DNA of 21,792 bases from a virus, in IMG/VR virus record IMGVR_UViG_3300035565_000021, positions 1-21,792 of that record, one strand, 5' to 3'. Numbering within the stretch: position 1 is the stretch's first letter; each line of letters begins with the position of its first letter. The notes below the pieces were generated by a model that searched no databases, was not told the DNA's origin, and saw only the letters and a program-made list of their open reading frames with translations. The translations under genes and the position numbers were made by a program. Shown in pieces: positions 1,139 through 16,755 of the stretch.

Positions 1139-1318
1139 TTACTTCTTGCCCTGCCCGTATGTTTTCGGGTTTGCCTTCGCAAAAGGCGCATAGGTAAAAC
1201 CCGCATCATGAACCTTGGTAACGGGTGTCGGATGCGGAGCCTTCCCCGCTTTCATGCCTGACCTTTTGCCTGCGGTATTACCCCACGGCGCTGACATCGG
1301 TTTTGTTGATTTGCCCAC
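1139..1318 (-). CDS. Small Gly/Lys/Pro-rich protein, 59 aa, GTG start
   Basis: The start is taken as GTG at 1318 because GGGAGGTGAG lies four bases upstream. An ATG further up at 1375 has no such site. The gene begins 41 bases inside the 3' end of the radical SAM gene in another frame. The product is rich in G, K, P and A, with KPMSAPWGNTAGKR near the N-terminus and ending NPKTYGQGKK. No domain is recognised. It could be a small virion protein or, because it sits directly downstream of a radical SAM gene with its own strong ribosome-binding site, a substrate of that enzyme. The second idea is speculative. Confidence 0.55.
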   Translation of the reverse strand: MGKSTKPMSAPWGNTAGKRSGMKAGKAPHPTPVTKVHDAGFTYAPFAKANPKTYGQGKK

Positions 1319-2234
1319 TATTCTCACCTCCCTTCCATTTTCTGAGTAGGTACGGAGTCCAGAAGCCCATCTCATTAATCTCTAAAAACATGCCGTAACG
1401 ACGGGCAATTCTGTCCCTGTAATTCAAATCCTTATAGCTTGCCATCTGCCTGCAATCGTCTTTCAGCTGCAGGTCGTGAATCTTATATTTCCCCGCCTTG
1501 ATCTTGGGTGATGTGTTCTTTATGCGCTCGAACCATTTCGGGCTTATGTCGTCGATCTCGTCAACGCTGTACCTCCGCTCAAGCGGCATACCGCATCCGC
1601 ATATTGAGCAAAATTCTTTTATCTGCCCGGTAAAGTGAAGCGGGACCCTGGTCCACCATCCCGGCTCTACGTTCCATGCGATCTTTTCCCCGCGCTTGTC
1701 GAACTGTTTGTTCATGAGAATCGCAAGCGAGGCGGCTATCTCGCAGAAGTAGGCGCCGAATGGATTGATTGAAGCGCTCCATGACAGTTGAGCCCAGCAT
1801 GAATCTATGATTACCCACTGACGCCATGACTCAAGCGGAAGTTCATCGGGCTGTACGAGTATCGGAGCGTGCAGAACGTCATCTCTCGTATGGTCGTTTA
1901 CAAACACATGCTGAAAGGTCTTGACGATTACTTCCCTGTAATGCTCGTAGCCTTCGGGGAAGCATGACCACAGCCCGCATTTTTCGGGCGGTATCTTCGA
2001 GTGAAGGTATTCGCACATCTCCTCGAACTGAGGATGAAGCAAGGGCTCCCCGCCCATGACTCCGGTCATCTTCGGATACTGAACCATCGAGTCAACAGCG
2101 TTTTTGAAGAAATCCATATCCATGAAAAACGGCTTCTTGTGATGCCCGACAAACCGCGTGCAGTTCCCGCACTCATGGAGGCAGGCGTTTGTAATCTCGA
2201 TTTGAATGGTGTCCATGTTTAGAAGTGGTCTCAT
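1278..2234 (-). CDS. Radical SAM protein with C-terminal cysteine region
   Basis: The 318-aa protein has the canonical CxxxCxxC cluster at C18, C22 and C25 that binds the catalytic 4Fe-4S cluster. It also has the GGEP motif at 61-64 that contacts S-adenosylmethionine. Further cysteines at C146, C164 and C209-x2-C212-x-C214 resemble an auxiliary-cluster (SPASM or twitch-like) region, as in peptide- and carbohydrate-modifying members. The family generates a 5'-deoxyadenosyl radical; the substrate here is unknown. The start overlaps the stop of the methyltransferase gene as ATGA. With the two upstream genes it forms a modification cassette inserted among virion genes, so a virion protein or glycan is a plausible target (inference). 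Confidence 0.85.
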   Translation of the reverse strand: MRPLLNMDTIQIEITNACLHECGNCTRFVGHHKKPFFMDMDFFKNAVDSMVQYPKMTGVMGGEPLLHPQFEEMCEYLHSKIPPEKCGLWSCFPEGYEHYREVIVKTFQHVFVNDHTRDDVLHAPILVQPDELPLESWRQWVIIDSCWAQLSWSASINPFGAYFCEIAASLAILMNKQFDKRGEKIAWNVEPGWWTRVPLHFTGQIKEFCSICGCGMPLERRYSVDEIDDISPKWFERIKNTSPKIKAGKYKIHDLQLKDDCRQMASYKDLNYRDRIARRYGMFLEINEMGFWTPYLLRKWKGGENSGQINKTDVSAVG

Positions 2235-2758
2235 AGGTACACCGCCCAGAAGCCGCCCGCTTCTTTCTCGTGTCCATCCGGGAAGTTTTCTTTCAGTGCC
2301 TGCGGCACGCCTTCCTGATCCGCATCATGACCGCAGATAAGTTTCTTTGCCTTCGGTAGCCATGCCTTGATGTCGGCGTTTATTGATTCAAAGTCATGCG
2401 CTCCGTCAAGGAATACCATGTCAACGGATTTATCCAGAAACATCTTCGCCGCCTGCGTGCTCTCCATCTTCATCAGAATGAGGTTCTGAAAATGACCGAC
2501 GTTATCGGAAAATAGTTTTGATATGTCCTCTTCGGTTGCCCTCTTGTGCGTTTCGTTTATCTCCGACGGGCTCCCCTTGAAGTGGTCAACACACCAGACA
2601 GTCCCCTTGCACCCAGAAAGAAGCGCGTGAGATGACCTGCCTTCCCATGAGCCGACCTCAACTGCTGATTCCATTTCGCAGGCTTTGGCGTATAACCAGT
2701 CGAGCTCGGTTCTGGTCATCCATCCATCGATGTTGTTGTCCTCGCTGTTGTAGCTCAT
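2231..2758 (-). CDS. Class I SAM-dependent methyltransferase, Methyltransf_24 type
   Basis: The 175-aa protein shows motif I VEVGSWEGRSS at 33-43, an acidic residue ending strand 2 (VDHF, D58), and VDMVFLDGAHD at 112-122. This is the signature of the Methyltransf_24 group. Near the end LICGHDADQEG and GGFWAVYL match the last strands of the fold. It is short but complete for the family. It overlaps both the glycosyltransferase (ATGA at 2755-2758) and the radical SAM gene (ATGA at 2231-2234), so the three are coupled. Members often methylate sugars or small acceptors, which would fit action on the product of the adjacent glycosyltransferase. The acceptor is not determined. Confidence 0.82.
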   Translation of the reverse strand: MSYNSEDNNIDGWMTRTELDWLYAKACEMESAVEVGSWEGRSSHALLSGCKGTVWCVDHFKGSPSEINETHKRATEEDISKLFSDNVGHFQNLILMKMESTQAAKMFLDKSVDMVFLDGAHDFESINADIKAWLPKAKKLICGHDADQEGVPQALKENFPDGHEKEAGGFWAVYL

Positions 2759-3561
2759 GACGCCGCCCCGACTTCTTCGGGAACATTTATCTGAAGCGGC
2801 TTGAGTCCCCAGGCTTTGAGCTGCTTTTCCATCATGATTATTTTCTGCTCCGGGCTCTGCTGGTACACATGAAACACCGGCCCAGCGTTGGCGAACTGCA
2901 TTCCGTTGTGAGTCATTACCTGAGTGCTCACGTAGTTGATGTCTCTCCCGTATCTTCTGATAAGCTCCGATACGAGGGTATGCTTGAGGCCGTAGCGCGA
3001 GATATTCCGAGATACGATGTAATCCTCAACCATGTTGTGTCCGCTCATGGGCTTATTGCTGTCCAGCTCGTCCTTGATCGGGAAGCAGTTTGACATTGCT
3101 TCCTCAAGCGTGATGTCCTCAAGCGGGTGATAGTAGTCCATGCACCAATCGGAGAATACGCCGAACCAGTTCCCTTTCCCGAAGTATCTGCCGTCTCGAA
3201 GGAAATACTCGTCGACCTTGAACCTTACAGGCGAGAAATCATGCACGCTGAATGCGGCCGTCGTGTCCTTCTGAAGCGTTGCGGTTACGTCGAAAAAGTC
3301 GGGATGAATCAGAGCGTCTGAATCAATGAAGATGTTCCAGTCGTTCTTGTGCTCTTTCCCGAGTTCGTATATCTGGAACTTCTCCAAGCCCGGAAACCCA
3401 CCGGCCATGTGCTGACCTTCAAGAGTCAGCTTCCGTTCTTTGATAACGCATATTTCCGCGCCGATTTTATACGCGTACTTTACGAGATACGGAAAGCAGA
3501 GGTTCCATATTTCCGGTTCGTAGTTCCCCCCTAGATTCAGAGTGTAAATCGTTTTTTTCAT
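2755..3561 (-). CDS. GT-A-fold glycosyltransferase
   Basis: The N-terminus (TLNLGGNYEPEIWNLCFPYL) and the DSD motif at 80-82 within WNIFIDSDALI are typical of nucleotide-sugar-dependent GT-A enzymes. The Asp pair binds metal and the sugar nucleotide. A later H-x3-VEDYIVSR segment resembles the acceptor-side region of galactosyl/mannosyltransferase-like families, but I cannot fix the exact CAZy family. At 268 aa it is of normal size. GGGGGA precedes the ATG by three bases. It is the first gene of the GT, methyltransferase and radical SAM cassette, and a hairpin separates it from the decoration-like gene upstream. The likely role is glycosylation of a virion or host surface component (inference). 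Confidence 0.78.
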   Translation of the reverse strand: MKKTIYTLNLGGNYEPEIWNLCFPYLVKYAYKIGAEICVIKERKLTLEGQHMAGGFPGLEKFQIYELGKEHKNDWNIFIDSDALIHPDFFDVTATLQKDTTAAFSVHDFSPVRFKVDEYFLRDGRYFGKGNWFGVFSDWCMDYYHPLEDITLEEAMSNCFPIKDELDSNKPMSGHNMVEDYIVSRNISRYGLKHTLVSELIRRYGRDINYVSTQVMTHNGMQFANAGPVFHVYQQSPEQKIIMMEKQLKAWGLKPLQINVPEEVGAAS

Positions 3562-14977: not shown

Positions 14978-15022
14978 GGGAGCTTGGCGGGGGCGCACGC
15001 GCGGAACTGCAAAGGAGGGAAC

Positions 15023-15568
15023 GTGAACGAAGCGGTGAAAAATATTTTAGGGGATCGTGTCAGGGATCGTGTCTGGGCTCGTGTCGGGGAGCGTGTCGGG
15101 GCTCGTGTCGGGGCTCGTGTCAGGGATCGTGTCAGGGATCGTGTCTGGGCTCGTGTCTGGGCTCGTGTCGGGGAGCGTGTCAGGGATCGTGTCTGGGCTC
15201 GTGTCTGGGCTCGTGTCGGGGAGCGCGTCAGGGATCGCGTCGGGGAGCGCGTCTGGGCTCGTGTCGGGGAGCGCGTCGGGGAGCGCGTCGGGGAGCGCGT
15301 CTGGGCTCGTGTCGGGGATCGCGTCTGGGAGCGCGTCGGGGAGCGCGTCGGGGAGCGCGTCAGGGATCGCGTCAGGGATCGCGTCAGGGATCGTGTCTGG
15401 GATCGCGTCGGGGAGCGCGTCTGGGAGCGCGTCAGGGATCGCGTCGGGGAGCGCGTCTGGGAGCGCGTCTGGGATCGCGTCTGGGATCGCGTCGGGGAGC
15501 GCGTCTGGGATCGCGTCGGGGAGCGCGTCTGGGAGCGCGTCAAGGATCTTAATTTAAATTTTGCATAG
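15023..15568 (+). CDS. Tetrapeptide-repeat protein, 41 x (x-x-Arg-Val), 181 aa
   Basis: AAAGGAGGGAAC precedes GTG at 15023, which I take as the start. Nine residues (NEAVKNIL after Met) lead into 41 uninterrupted tetrapeptides of the form [G/R/W]-[D/E/A]-R-V, then the tail KDLNLNFA. Each unit is 12 bp with little change in DNA. The two variable positions are drawn from tiny sets while Arg-Val is invariant. A long charged helix or superhelix is possible. From memory, similar [W/R/G/Y]-[D/A]-S-V repeats occur inside or beside DUF6745 proteins, and a DUF6745-type gene follows nine bases later. Function is unknown. A phase-variable or recombination-diversified binding protein is one inference. 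Confidence 0.7.
   Translation: MNEAVKNILGDRVRDRVWARVGERVGARVGARVRDRVRDRVWARVWARVGERVRDRVWARVWARVGERVRDRVGERVWARVGERVGERVGERVWARVGDRVWERVGERVGERVRDRVRDRVRDRVWDRVGERVWERVRDRVGERVWERVWDRVWDRVGERVWDRVGERVWERVKDLNLNFA
15050..15541 (+). repeat. 12-bp tandem repeat array, 41 units
   Basis: The unit is GTC-[A/T/G]GG-G[AT/AG/CT]-CG[T/C], exactly in frame with the gene. In the 5' part (to about 15220) Arg is nearly always CGT. In the 3' part it is CGC after GAG and mostly CGC after GAT, while GCT units keep CGT. That block structure suggests growth by local duplication. The array is far richer in G and C than the genes around it. Confidence 0.9.
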
Positions 15569-15577
15569 GGGTGGATT

Positions 15578-16441
15578 ATGTCTGAATCTAAAAAAGAAAA
15601 TCTTACAAAAAAGGAAGAAGAACTTATTGATATCGTAGCTGAAACATGGATCAATAAAACCTTGTTCAGCAAAACCAAAATAGACCAGGAAAAGGCTATT
15701 GCGGGAATTGTTTTTATTTATTCATTATCAGACCTAAAACCGCCACAGATTGTTATATGCGAAGACCCTATGGATTTATTTACGGCGGCACAAGAACTTG
15801 GTGCGGAAATAGAAAAGGGAAGCACGTTTGATTATTTTGGGCTTGGGTACGATTCTGGATGGTCTGCATTCTATGATTATTTTCAGCAAATAGGAATTGA
15901 CTTGTCCGAGTTCGATTTTAATAAATGGCTTACCTTTCTTGATAGCGGAATATGGGCATCGTTGTTTTACGAGAATTATGCTTTTGTATGCGCTGGGCCA
16001 TCTAAGGTTAATTTGAATAAGGATAATAGCCTTCACTGTGAGTCAGGAATGGCTATCGAATGGCCTAGCGGTTGGGGCTTGTATTTTTTAAACGGAGTTG
16101 CCGTGGACGATGCTGTTGTAACTACTCCTGCTGAAAGCCTTGATCCTAATTTGGTGTTGACCGAGAAAAACGCTGAAGTCAGGCGTGAAATTGTCCGGAA
16201 AATAGGTATTGAACGAGTTATGCAAAAACTCAACGCAAAAATTATTGACAAGTGGGAAGAATACGAACTGCTTGAGCTTCCCATTGCAGGCATGATAACA
16301 AAAGCAGTTTATCTGAAAATGAAAAATCCATCTATCGGGACGTATCACGTAGAGGGAGTTCCGTCAGATATAAAAACCTGCCAAGCGGCACTATCTTGGA
16401 GGATCGGAGGTATCTCTTGGGAACCAAATCAATTAACCTAA
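15578..16441 (+). CDS. DUF6745-type protein, 287 aa
   Basis: AGGGGTGG precedes the ATG. The protein has an N-terminal helical segment (EELIDIVAETWINKTL, then IDQEKAIAGIVFIYSL). A central WSAFYDYFQQIGID block follows, then the LHCESGMAIEWPSGWGLYFLNGV strand-rich part. The C-terminal half carries KNAEVRREIVRKIGIERVMQ and KNPSIGTYHVEGVP. I recognise these blocks from proteins annotated DUF6745, which have no assigned function. In many of them a tetrapeptide repeat sits upstream of the FYDYF block; here it is a separate gene. The gene is A/T-rich compared with the repeat array. No catalytic triad is evident. Confidence 0.75.
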   Translation: MSESKKENLTKKEEELIDIVAETWINKTLFSKTKIDQEKAIAGIVFIYSLSDLKPPQIVICEDPMDLFTAAQELGAEIEKGSTFDYFGLGYDSGWSAFYDYFQQIGIDLSEFDFNKWLTFLDSGIWASLFYENYAFVCAGPSKVNLNKDNSLHCESGMAIEWPSGWGLYFLNGVAVDDAVVTTPAESLDPNLVLTEKNAEVRREIVRKIGIERVMQKLNAKIIDKWEEYELLELPIAGMITKAVYLKMKNPSIGTYHVEGVPSDIKTCQAALSWRIGGISWEPNQLT

Positions 16442-16455
16442 AAGGAGAAAGCAAA

Positions 16456-16755
16456 ATGTTAATCGTTCAGGGTGATGTATTTTTAACGAAGTGTGCAATA
16501 CCAAAAGATGCAAAAAAGAAAAAAGGTTTTGTTCTTGCCGAAGGAGAAGTTACCGGACATTGTCACGCAGTACTTGAACAGGACTGCGCGGAACTTTACG
16601 AAAAAGACGGCGTGTTATATCTCAGCGCAACCAAAGATGTTACGGTGAGACATGATGAACACAAACCGATTACTGTTCCTGCGGGGAATTGGAAAGTGGG
16701 CATCGTAAAAGAGTTTGACCCATTTGAAGAAGAAACGAGAAACGTGCAGGACTAG
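16456..16755 (+). CDS. Conserved partner of DUF6745 protein, 99 aa
   Basis: AAAGGAG precedes ATG at 16456, 14 bases after the DUF6745 stop. The protein is a small beta-rich fold: MLIVQGDVFLTKC, LAEGEVTGHCHAVL with H35 and H37, then TVRHDEHKPITVPAGNW with H66 and H69, ending EFDPFEEETRNVQD. The conserved histidines could bind a metal. I recall this protein beside DUF6745 genes in bacterial genomes, which makes the pair a unit. The function is not known to me. Confidence 0.7.
   Translation: MLIVQGDVFLTKCAIPKDAKKKKGFVLAEGEVTGHCHAVLEQDCAELYEKDGVLYLSATKDVTVRHDEHKPITVPAGNWKVGIVKEFDPFEEETRNVQD

Follow-up and report, generated by a model that had tools for sequence, protein, structure and literature searches.

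A phage tetrapeptide-repeat protein with DUF6745 and small all-beta partners: a candidate module combining a constant core with an exchangeable array

The window analyzed here is a stretch of viral DNA of 21,792 bp (positions 1 to 21,792 of the IMG/VR virus record IMGVR_UViG_3300035565_000021) which carries, between positions 15023 and 16755, three genes, each with its own ribosome-binding site, coding for a stand-alone tetrapeptide array (P0001), a DUF6745 protein (P0002) and a small partner protein (P0003) whose family is called P3 below. We propose that these genes form a single module in which a constant core, which would be a complex of the DUF6745 protein with the small all-beta P3, is associated with a variable part, the tetrapeptide array. 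In most relatives this array is located within the DUF6745 protein; the window phage, and no fewer than six others, encode it as a protein of its own that would be provided in trans. The array may function as a recognition string, in which each unit would have its scaffold at positions 3 and 4 and, at positions 1 (W/R/G/E) and 2 (D/E/A/S/N), the letters that set what the array binds; both this binding and the role of the letters are what we infer. Gain, loss and exchange of units would rapidly change the length and the order of the array, with the letters being kept diverse. A constant DUF6745-P3 core combined with an exchangeable recognition array is the mechanism that we prefer, and we place it just on the probable side of even. 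The original prediction, made from the letters of the window, had drawn the same three-gene unit with the repeat as its variable part and all three proteins acting together, a view that the comparative data support.

A first line of evidence is the association of DUF6745 with P3. A scan with a P3 profile retrieved 223 viral relatives and 83 in bacterial or archaeal genomes, and 80 of each were fetched (160 loci; individual loci are designated by L numbers). P3 was found beside DUF6745 in most of the fetched viral loci and in 64 of the 80 genome loci, in line with the original prediction that the 99-residue family is a regular partner of DUF6745. Several of the fetched loci without a DUF6745 gene beside P3 are contigs that break off within a repeat array or where one begins or ends. 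Neighbour clustering over the fetched loci returned DUF6745 in 111, P3 in 106 and the next family in 11, making DUF6745 the only neighbour of P3 conserved across loci. Among 120 genomes from the order of one Nostoc (cyanobacteria), 52 encode DUF6745, 45 encode P3 and 44 both (Fisher p = 2e-23). The pair is thus not confined to this genome and co-occurs widely in viral and bacterial loci. DUF6745 is rare among phage isolates, being found in few of them, and a search of 5.39 million papers found no mention of it. Two genes upstream of the pair in L004 (2624-3229), an alanine-rich Imm5-like repeat protein was observed (Pfam PF21805, E 1.2e-5).

Both conserved partners could be delineated in the window. 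The DUF6745-type gene that had been placed nine bases after the repeat gene is confirmed by its Pfam match (43.5 bits for a cut-off of 27, residues 123-238), and P0002 contains LHCESGMA and NAEVRREIVRKIG, which fit the conserved DUF6745 core LHxxxGPA / NAEVRR in alignments. Comparison with fused relatives shows that in P0002 the N-domain, whose motif among DUF6745 relatives is LTxEQ...W..IGL.T.PADR, is joined directly to DUF6745, the internal array being absent. The third gene, described earlier as small and containing histidines, does encode a protein with conserved histidines; it matched no Pfam or NCBIfam family and corresponds to phrog_27831, a PHROG of unknown function (E 2.5e-7). P0003 contains all the P3 family motifs, namely the QGDV strand, GEVTGHxH, HxEH and a terminal V-x-D, and the columns that are invariant among 60 aligned family sequences include G6, A28, E31, G34, H37, H69, E86 and D99. 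One may speculate from this conservation that H37, H66, H69, E31 and E86 form a metal or catalytic site. AlphaFold2 predicts an all-beta fold for P3 with a predicted local distance difference test (pLDDT) score of 92.8 and a predicted template modelling score (pTM) of 0.81. A structural search of a viral library with P3 gave one clear match, to an uncharacterised phage protein; weaker ones pointed to two archaeal viruses, Acidianus rod-shaped virus 2 and Sulfolobus islandicus rod-shaped virus 1, whose matching proteins are also uncharacterised.

The distribution of the QGDV strand links both proteins further. In six loci (L003, L047, L052, L059, L106 and L188), P3 is devoid of its N-terminal QGDV strand and the C-terminus of DUF6745 has QGDV, while in 90 other scorable loci QGDV is present in P3 and not in the DUF6745 C-terminus, with no mixed cases (p = 1e-9). 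A strand exchange is the simplest explanation of this pattern, and since such an exchange needs both proteins to associate, it points to a physical DUF6745-P3 complex. In L003, L047, L052 and L059, a programmed frameshift leading from DUF6745 into P3 was rejected as a reading in favour of strand transfer with a new downstream start.

The second line of evidence is the alternation of the array between a place within the DUF6745 protein and a gene of its own. Thirty-nine loci encode the array as part of the DUF6745 protein, where it separates the N-domain from DUF6745. In the split form, seen in the window, L043, L077, L235, L240 and L245, the array is encoded separately and the neighbouring DUF6745 is array-less; L239, with both partners near its ten array genes, brings the split loci other than the window to at least six. 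The earlier statement that the repeat is a separate protein thus holds for the window phage and fails as a peculiarity of it, since this form recurs and often comprises several genes. Gene order is also variable, with DUF6745 followed by stand-alone arrays and P3 in L240, by P3 and then the arrays in L235, and with the arrays preceding DUF6745 and P3 in L245. Tandem array genes, which have short conserved ends, amount to about 27 in L241, 15 in L236 and 10 in L239. In L241 (44-5705), as in L236, L239 and L245, some 10 to 27 such small genes are packed within 2-6 kb of phage DNA; L236 and L241, whose records may be fragments, showed no detectable DUF6745 or P3. Because the P3 subfamily differs in L235, L240, L245, L043 and L077 (divergent, HGEC / SETTGNHH), the split form probably arose more than once.

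Importantly, stand-alone-array records were found via the array alone, and P3 was nevertheless present in five of eight of them versus one of 29 records with the array in another, mostly DUF7666-like, protein type (p = 7e-4). As judged from sequence, the array has therefore been exchanged between cis and trans positions and, following Rosetta-stone logic, its fusion to DUF6745 in most lineages and its separation in others argue that the array works with its DUF6745 partner. [W/R/G]-[D/A]-S-V repeats accompany DUF6745 in bacteria, as the original prediction stated (L106, L141 and L149). [WRG][DA]SV arrays are also found inside a different phage protein ending in PSFDGKTWRLHSG (L208, L211, L216-L229, L244 and L247), almost always without DUF6745 or P3, and which we take to be DUF7666-like. 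Phage isolates searched with the stand-alone arrays and these DUF7666-like array proteins gave no match.

The third line of evidence concerns the units themselves. Tandem Repeats Finder detected a single array in the window, of period 12 and 41.0 copies with 86% matches and 0 indels, confirming the 41 in-frame 12-bp units coding for x-x-Arg-Val that had been read from the letters. P0001 thus reads VNEAVKNIL-(xxRV)41-KDLNLNFA, and its N-terminus is similar to those of the stand-alone arrays of L043 (MNFSEAVKKQV) and L236 (NISEAV). Position 1 of its units is G (17), W (15) or R (9) and position 2 is E (17), D (15) or A (9), while R and V are invariant (41/41). Replacement (pN) and silent (pS) variation was compared in 40 arrays of 12-62 units, a few of which are close relatives so that the counts are not fully independent. 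pN exceeded pS in 37 of the 40 arrays, pS was exactly 0 in 18, and the medians were 0.150 for pN and 0.006 for pS; in the other two frames, pN exceeded pS in only 13/40 and 9/40. Frozen silent sites beside variable letters are thus apparent, at this level, in most relatives. The arrays use a small alphabet, W/R/G/E at position 1 and D/A/S/N at position 2, and its letters recur across lineages under differing codons, with TGG, AGG or CGG, GGG and GAG at position 1 and GAY/GCY at position 2. Positions 3 and 4 are fixed residues within arrays, but lineages differ in their constant third residue (R, S, Q, N, K, E or A), which makes a fixed charge role, as in DNA or charge mimicry, unlikely.

Arrays also appear to be reshuffled between close relatives. 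L018 and L021 have flanks which are 99% and 95% identical and arrays of 28 and 30 units, whose alignment is no better than that of shuffled strings; between L088 and L089 the flanks are identical and the arrays three units apart.

The only functional precedent is gp54 of mycobacteriophage Tweety (with Che8 gp57 and PMC gp51), which we regard as an analogue only. Like the present arrays, it is a tetrapeptide array of 12-bp units using the letters W/G(/Q), in a non-structural phage gene, with a number of units that varies between relatives; its silent positions are frozen, as in most relatives of the window array. Its codon counts (GCC48 GCA48 / TGG11 GGG34 CAG3 / AGC38 TAC10) show this coding signature. 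The window matches it in array and letters, but the window array has silent CGT/CGC variation in one column, its only silent variation, whereas the Tweety array has been reported to have none (PMC2884959). It differs further by its constant Alanine-Alanine positions and by its unrelated flanks, which belong to phrog_3416, without Pfam match or DUF6745, while P0001 and P0002 are devoid of phrog_3416. Since its flanks are unrelated and P3 is absent from the Tweety genome, gp54 was rejected as a homologue. Mutants of Tweety gp54 that carry a changed number of repeats escape defences encoded by prophages, its counter-defence being tuned in this way (PMC9262239, PMC8549241). By analogy, the role that we favour for the module in phages is counter-defence, which taken on its own is speculative and less likely than not: the module might bind a variable factor of the host or of a prophage during early infection and so neutralise it.

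Closer in family are gp37-gp38 of prophiGD102-1 (Mycobacterium abscessus), which share the DUF6745 family, the P3 partner family and the kind of repeat. The array of gp38, a long [G/R/W][D/G]-Q-L array, is however fused within the DUF6745 protein, with Q-L instead of R-V as constant residues. The split loci L235, L240, L245, L043 and L077 gather an array-less DUF6745, P3 and separate array genes in one place, as in the window, but have several to many array genes per locus. In Microcystis phage Ma-LMM01, the adjacent gp174-gp175 are the DUF6745 (phrog_31813) and P3 (phrog_27831) pair; a tetrapeptide array was not found within the 8-kb locus. The likeness to transcription activator-like (TAL) effector repeat codes is one of principle only, a constant scaffold with few variable residues per repeat; their repeats are about 34 residues long versus 4 here, with no sequence relation and no evidence for nucleic-acid binding here.

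A bolder formulation, possible but in our view doubtful, is that of a protein-encoded recognition code, in which a constant DUF6745-P3 effector core would be given specificity by exchangeable tetrapeptide strings. Each unit would contribute one or two letters, and the strings would be built in cis or come from libraries that can reach about 27 stand-alone genes. This would let phages follow targets that change in the host or in prophages; the core is also present on the chromosome of some bacteria. Should the recognition-array reading hold, an undescribed class of modular proteins, in which two conserved proteins form the core and a hypervariable four-residue repeat provides an exchangeable string for recognition, would be spread across phages of many hosts and bacterial chromosomes, and Tweety gp54, until now an isolated curiosity, would join a large set of similar arrays.

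Several observations weigh against a recognition array on a constant core. The window array itself, with a pN of 0.159 and a pS of 0.196 (ratio 0.81), does not show the excess found among relatives. In the AlphaFold2 model of a fused relative (L018), the N-domain and the DUF6745 domain are confident, while the array is modelled as long helices with a pLDDT of 45-50; an ordered binding surface is therefore hypothetical. A search of PDB folds with P3 and this fused model gave no match for either conserved protein, and PADLOC and NCBIfam models did not match the DUF6745-P3 pair. Many DUF6745 proteins are devoid of a tetrapeptide array. The phages are also metagenomic and assembly error could affect array order, although exact internal repeats are at most 50-67 bp long in the arrays of the window, L018 and L021, those of L088/L089 reaching 59 bp; at 50 bp, that of the window array could be resolved by ordinary short reads. 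Finally, the chromosomal pairs of cyanobacteria and of Verrucomicrobia, where L111, L116, L119 and other loci have DUF6745-P3 with the radical S-adenosylmethionine (SAM) proteins STM4011/STM4012 and with STM4014 or STM4015, are a poor fit to phage-only counter-defence; the core is therefore not only a phage device. A known anti-phage defence system was rejected, as P0002 and P0003 have no PADLOC match and P0001 gave weak low-complexity PADLOC matches only. In the search for known folds, a match of P0001 to P230 was discounted as low complexity.

These chromosomal pairs, common in one cyanobacterial order and clustered with STM4011-4015 genes in Verrucomicrobia, would be accounted for if the proteins served ordinary cell or phage physiology, for example in a protein-modification or replication-associated complex, the variation of the array being a by-product of slippage under weak selection. 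In phages the pair lies close to genes of replication or recombination (in the window AAA_24 and DUF669, in Ma-LMM01 DNA polymerase), which is consistent with such a role. Slippage with weak or purifying selection should nonetheless leave silent differences, while 18 of 40 arrays have none and replacements are abundant, and both the full replacement of arrays between 95-99% identical relatives and the 10-27 tandem array genes suggest that variation matters. We thus consider this explanation rather unlikely.

Unlikely, and placed slightly lower still, is a function of the array as a spacer or ruler whose length sets the distance between partners, unit number being tuned and the letters keeping a low-complexity scaffold soluble. 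Other repeats do fill the slot holding tetrapeptides elsewhere, namely leucine-rich repeats in L116, [LR][DA]A tripeptides in L026 and L032 and repeats of about 20 residues in L062; the range of 12 to 62 units, the extended helices modelled by AlphaFold2 and the differing repeat number of the Tweety escape mutants would also fit. This function leaves unexplained why codon positions 1-2 vary beside frozen silent sites and why lineages share the W/R/G x D/A letters while encoding them by different codons, and a separate array protein without fused domain, as in the window, cannot space fused domains.

Targeted variation by a diversity-generating retroelement, through templated adenine mutagenesis, would explain replacement-only changes at defined columns; it was rejected as highly improbable, since a reverse transcriptase (RVT_1) is absent from the window and from 32 array-bearing records, some of which may be fragments, changed bases extend beyond template adenines (NGG takes T/A/G, GAY/GCY alternate) and gaining or losing units is foreign to retroelements. 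Across the window array, all three plus frames and two minus frames are open, which any 12-bp repeat that contains no stop would be expected to show. xxRV is the right frame because it has the start and the ribosome-binding site, because its alphabet ([WGR][DAE]xV), unlike that of any other frame, agrees with the arrays of relatives, and because these are fused in frame to DUF6745. That the array is untranslated and acts as DNA, as binding sites or a recombination hotspot, is equally improbable, its tandem 12-bp structure, its guanine-plus-cytosine content (72% versus 48.6% for the window) and its frames open on both strands being outweighed by the strong ribosome-binding site and start, the 39 in-frame fusions, the convergence of amino acids with different codons and the frame-specific excess of pN over pS.

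In L002 (5128-6627), an array-bearing DUF6745 protein is open only when TGA is read as an amino acid, for which the alignment fits glycine (code 25); this phage thus probably infects a recoded host.

In the window, P22-like portal and coat genes are located on the minus strand, and the early region on the plus strand contains a helix-turn-helix (HTH) repressor followed by the three module genes and by AAA_24, DUF669 and Dam methylase genes. The stop of the repeat gene is separated by 9 bases from the DUF6745 gene, itself followed after 14 bases by the P3 gene (Table 1). A scan for promoters and terminators near the genes gave results close to shuffled background.

Table 1. Coordinates of the module genes and associated elements in the window.
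Feature	Position	Strand	Basis
Ribosome-binding site AAAGGAGGG of the repeat gene	15011..15019	+	Direct reading, 3 nt upstream of GTG start
Stand-alone tetrapeptide-array gene P0001, 181 aa, GTG start	15023..15568	+	
Array, 41 x 12 bp = 41 units [G/W/R][E/D/A]RV	15050..15541	+	
Ribosome-binding site AGGGGTGG of the DUF6745 gene, overlapping the repeat-gene stop	15567..15574	+	Direct reading
DUF6745 protein P0002, 287 aa	15578..16441	+	Pfam PF20530, E 2.8e-11
Ribosome-binding site AAGGAG of the third gene	16442..16447	+	Direct reading
P3 (P0003), 99 aa, small all-beta partner	16456..16755	+	60-sequence alignment; AlphaFold2

In the late region of the window (1278-3561, minus strand), three genes resemble, by eye only, a radical-SAM protein, a methyltransferase and a glycosyltransferase.
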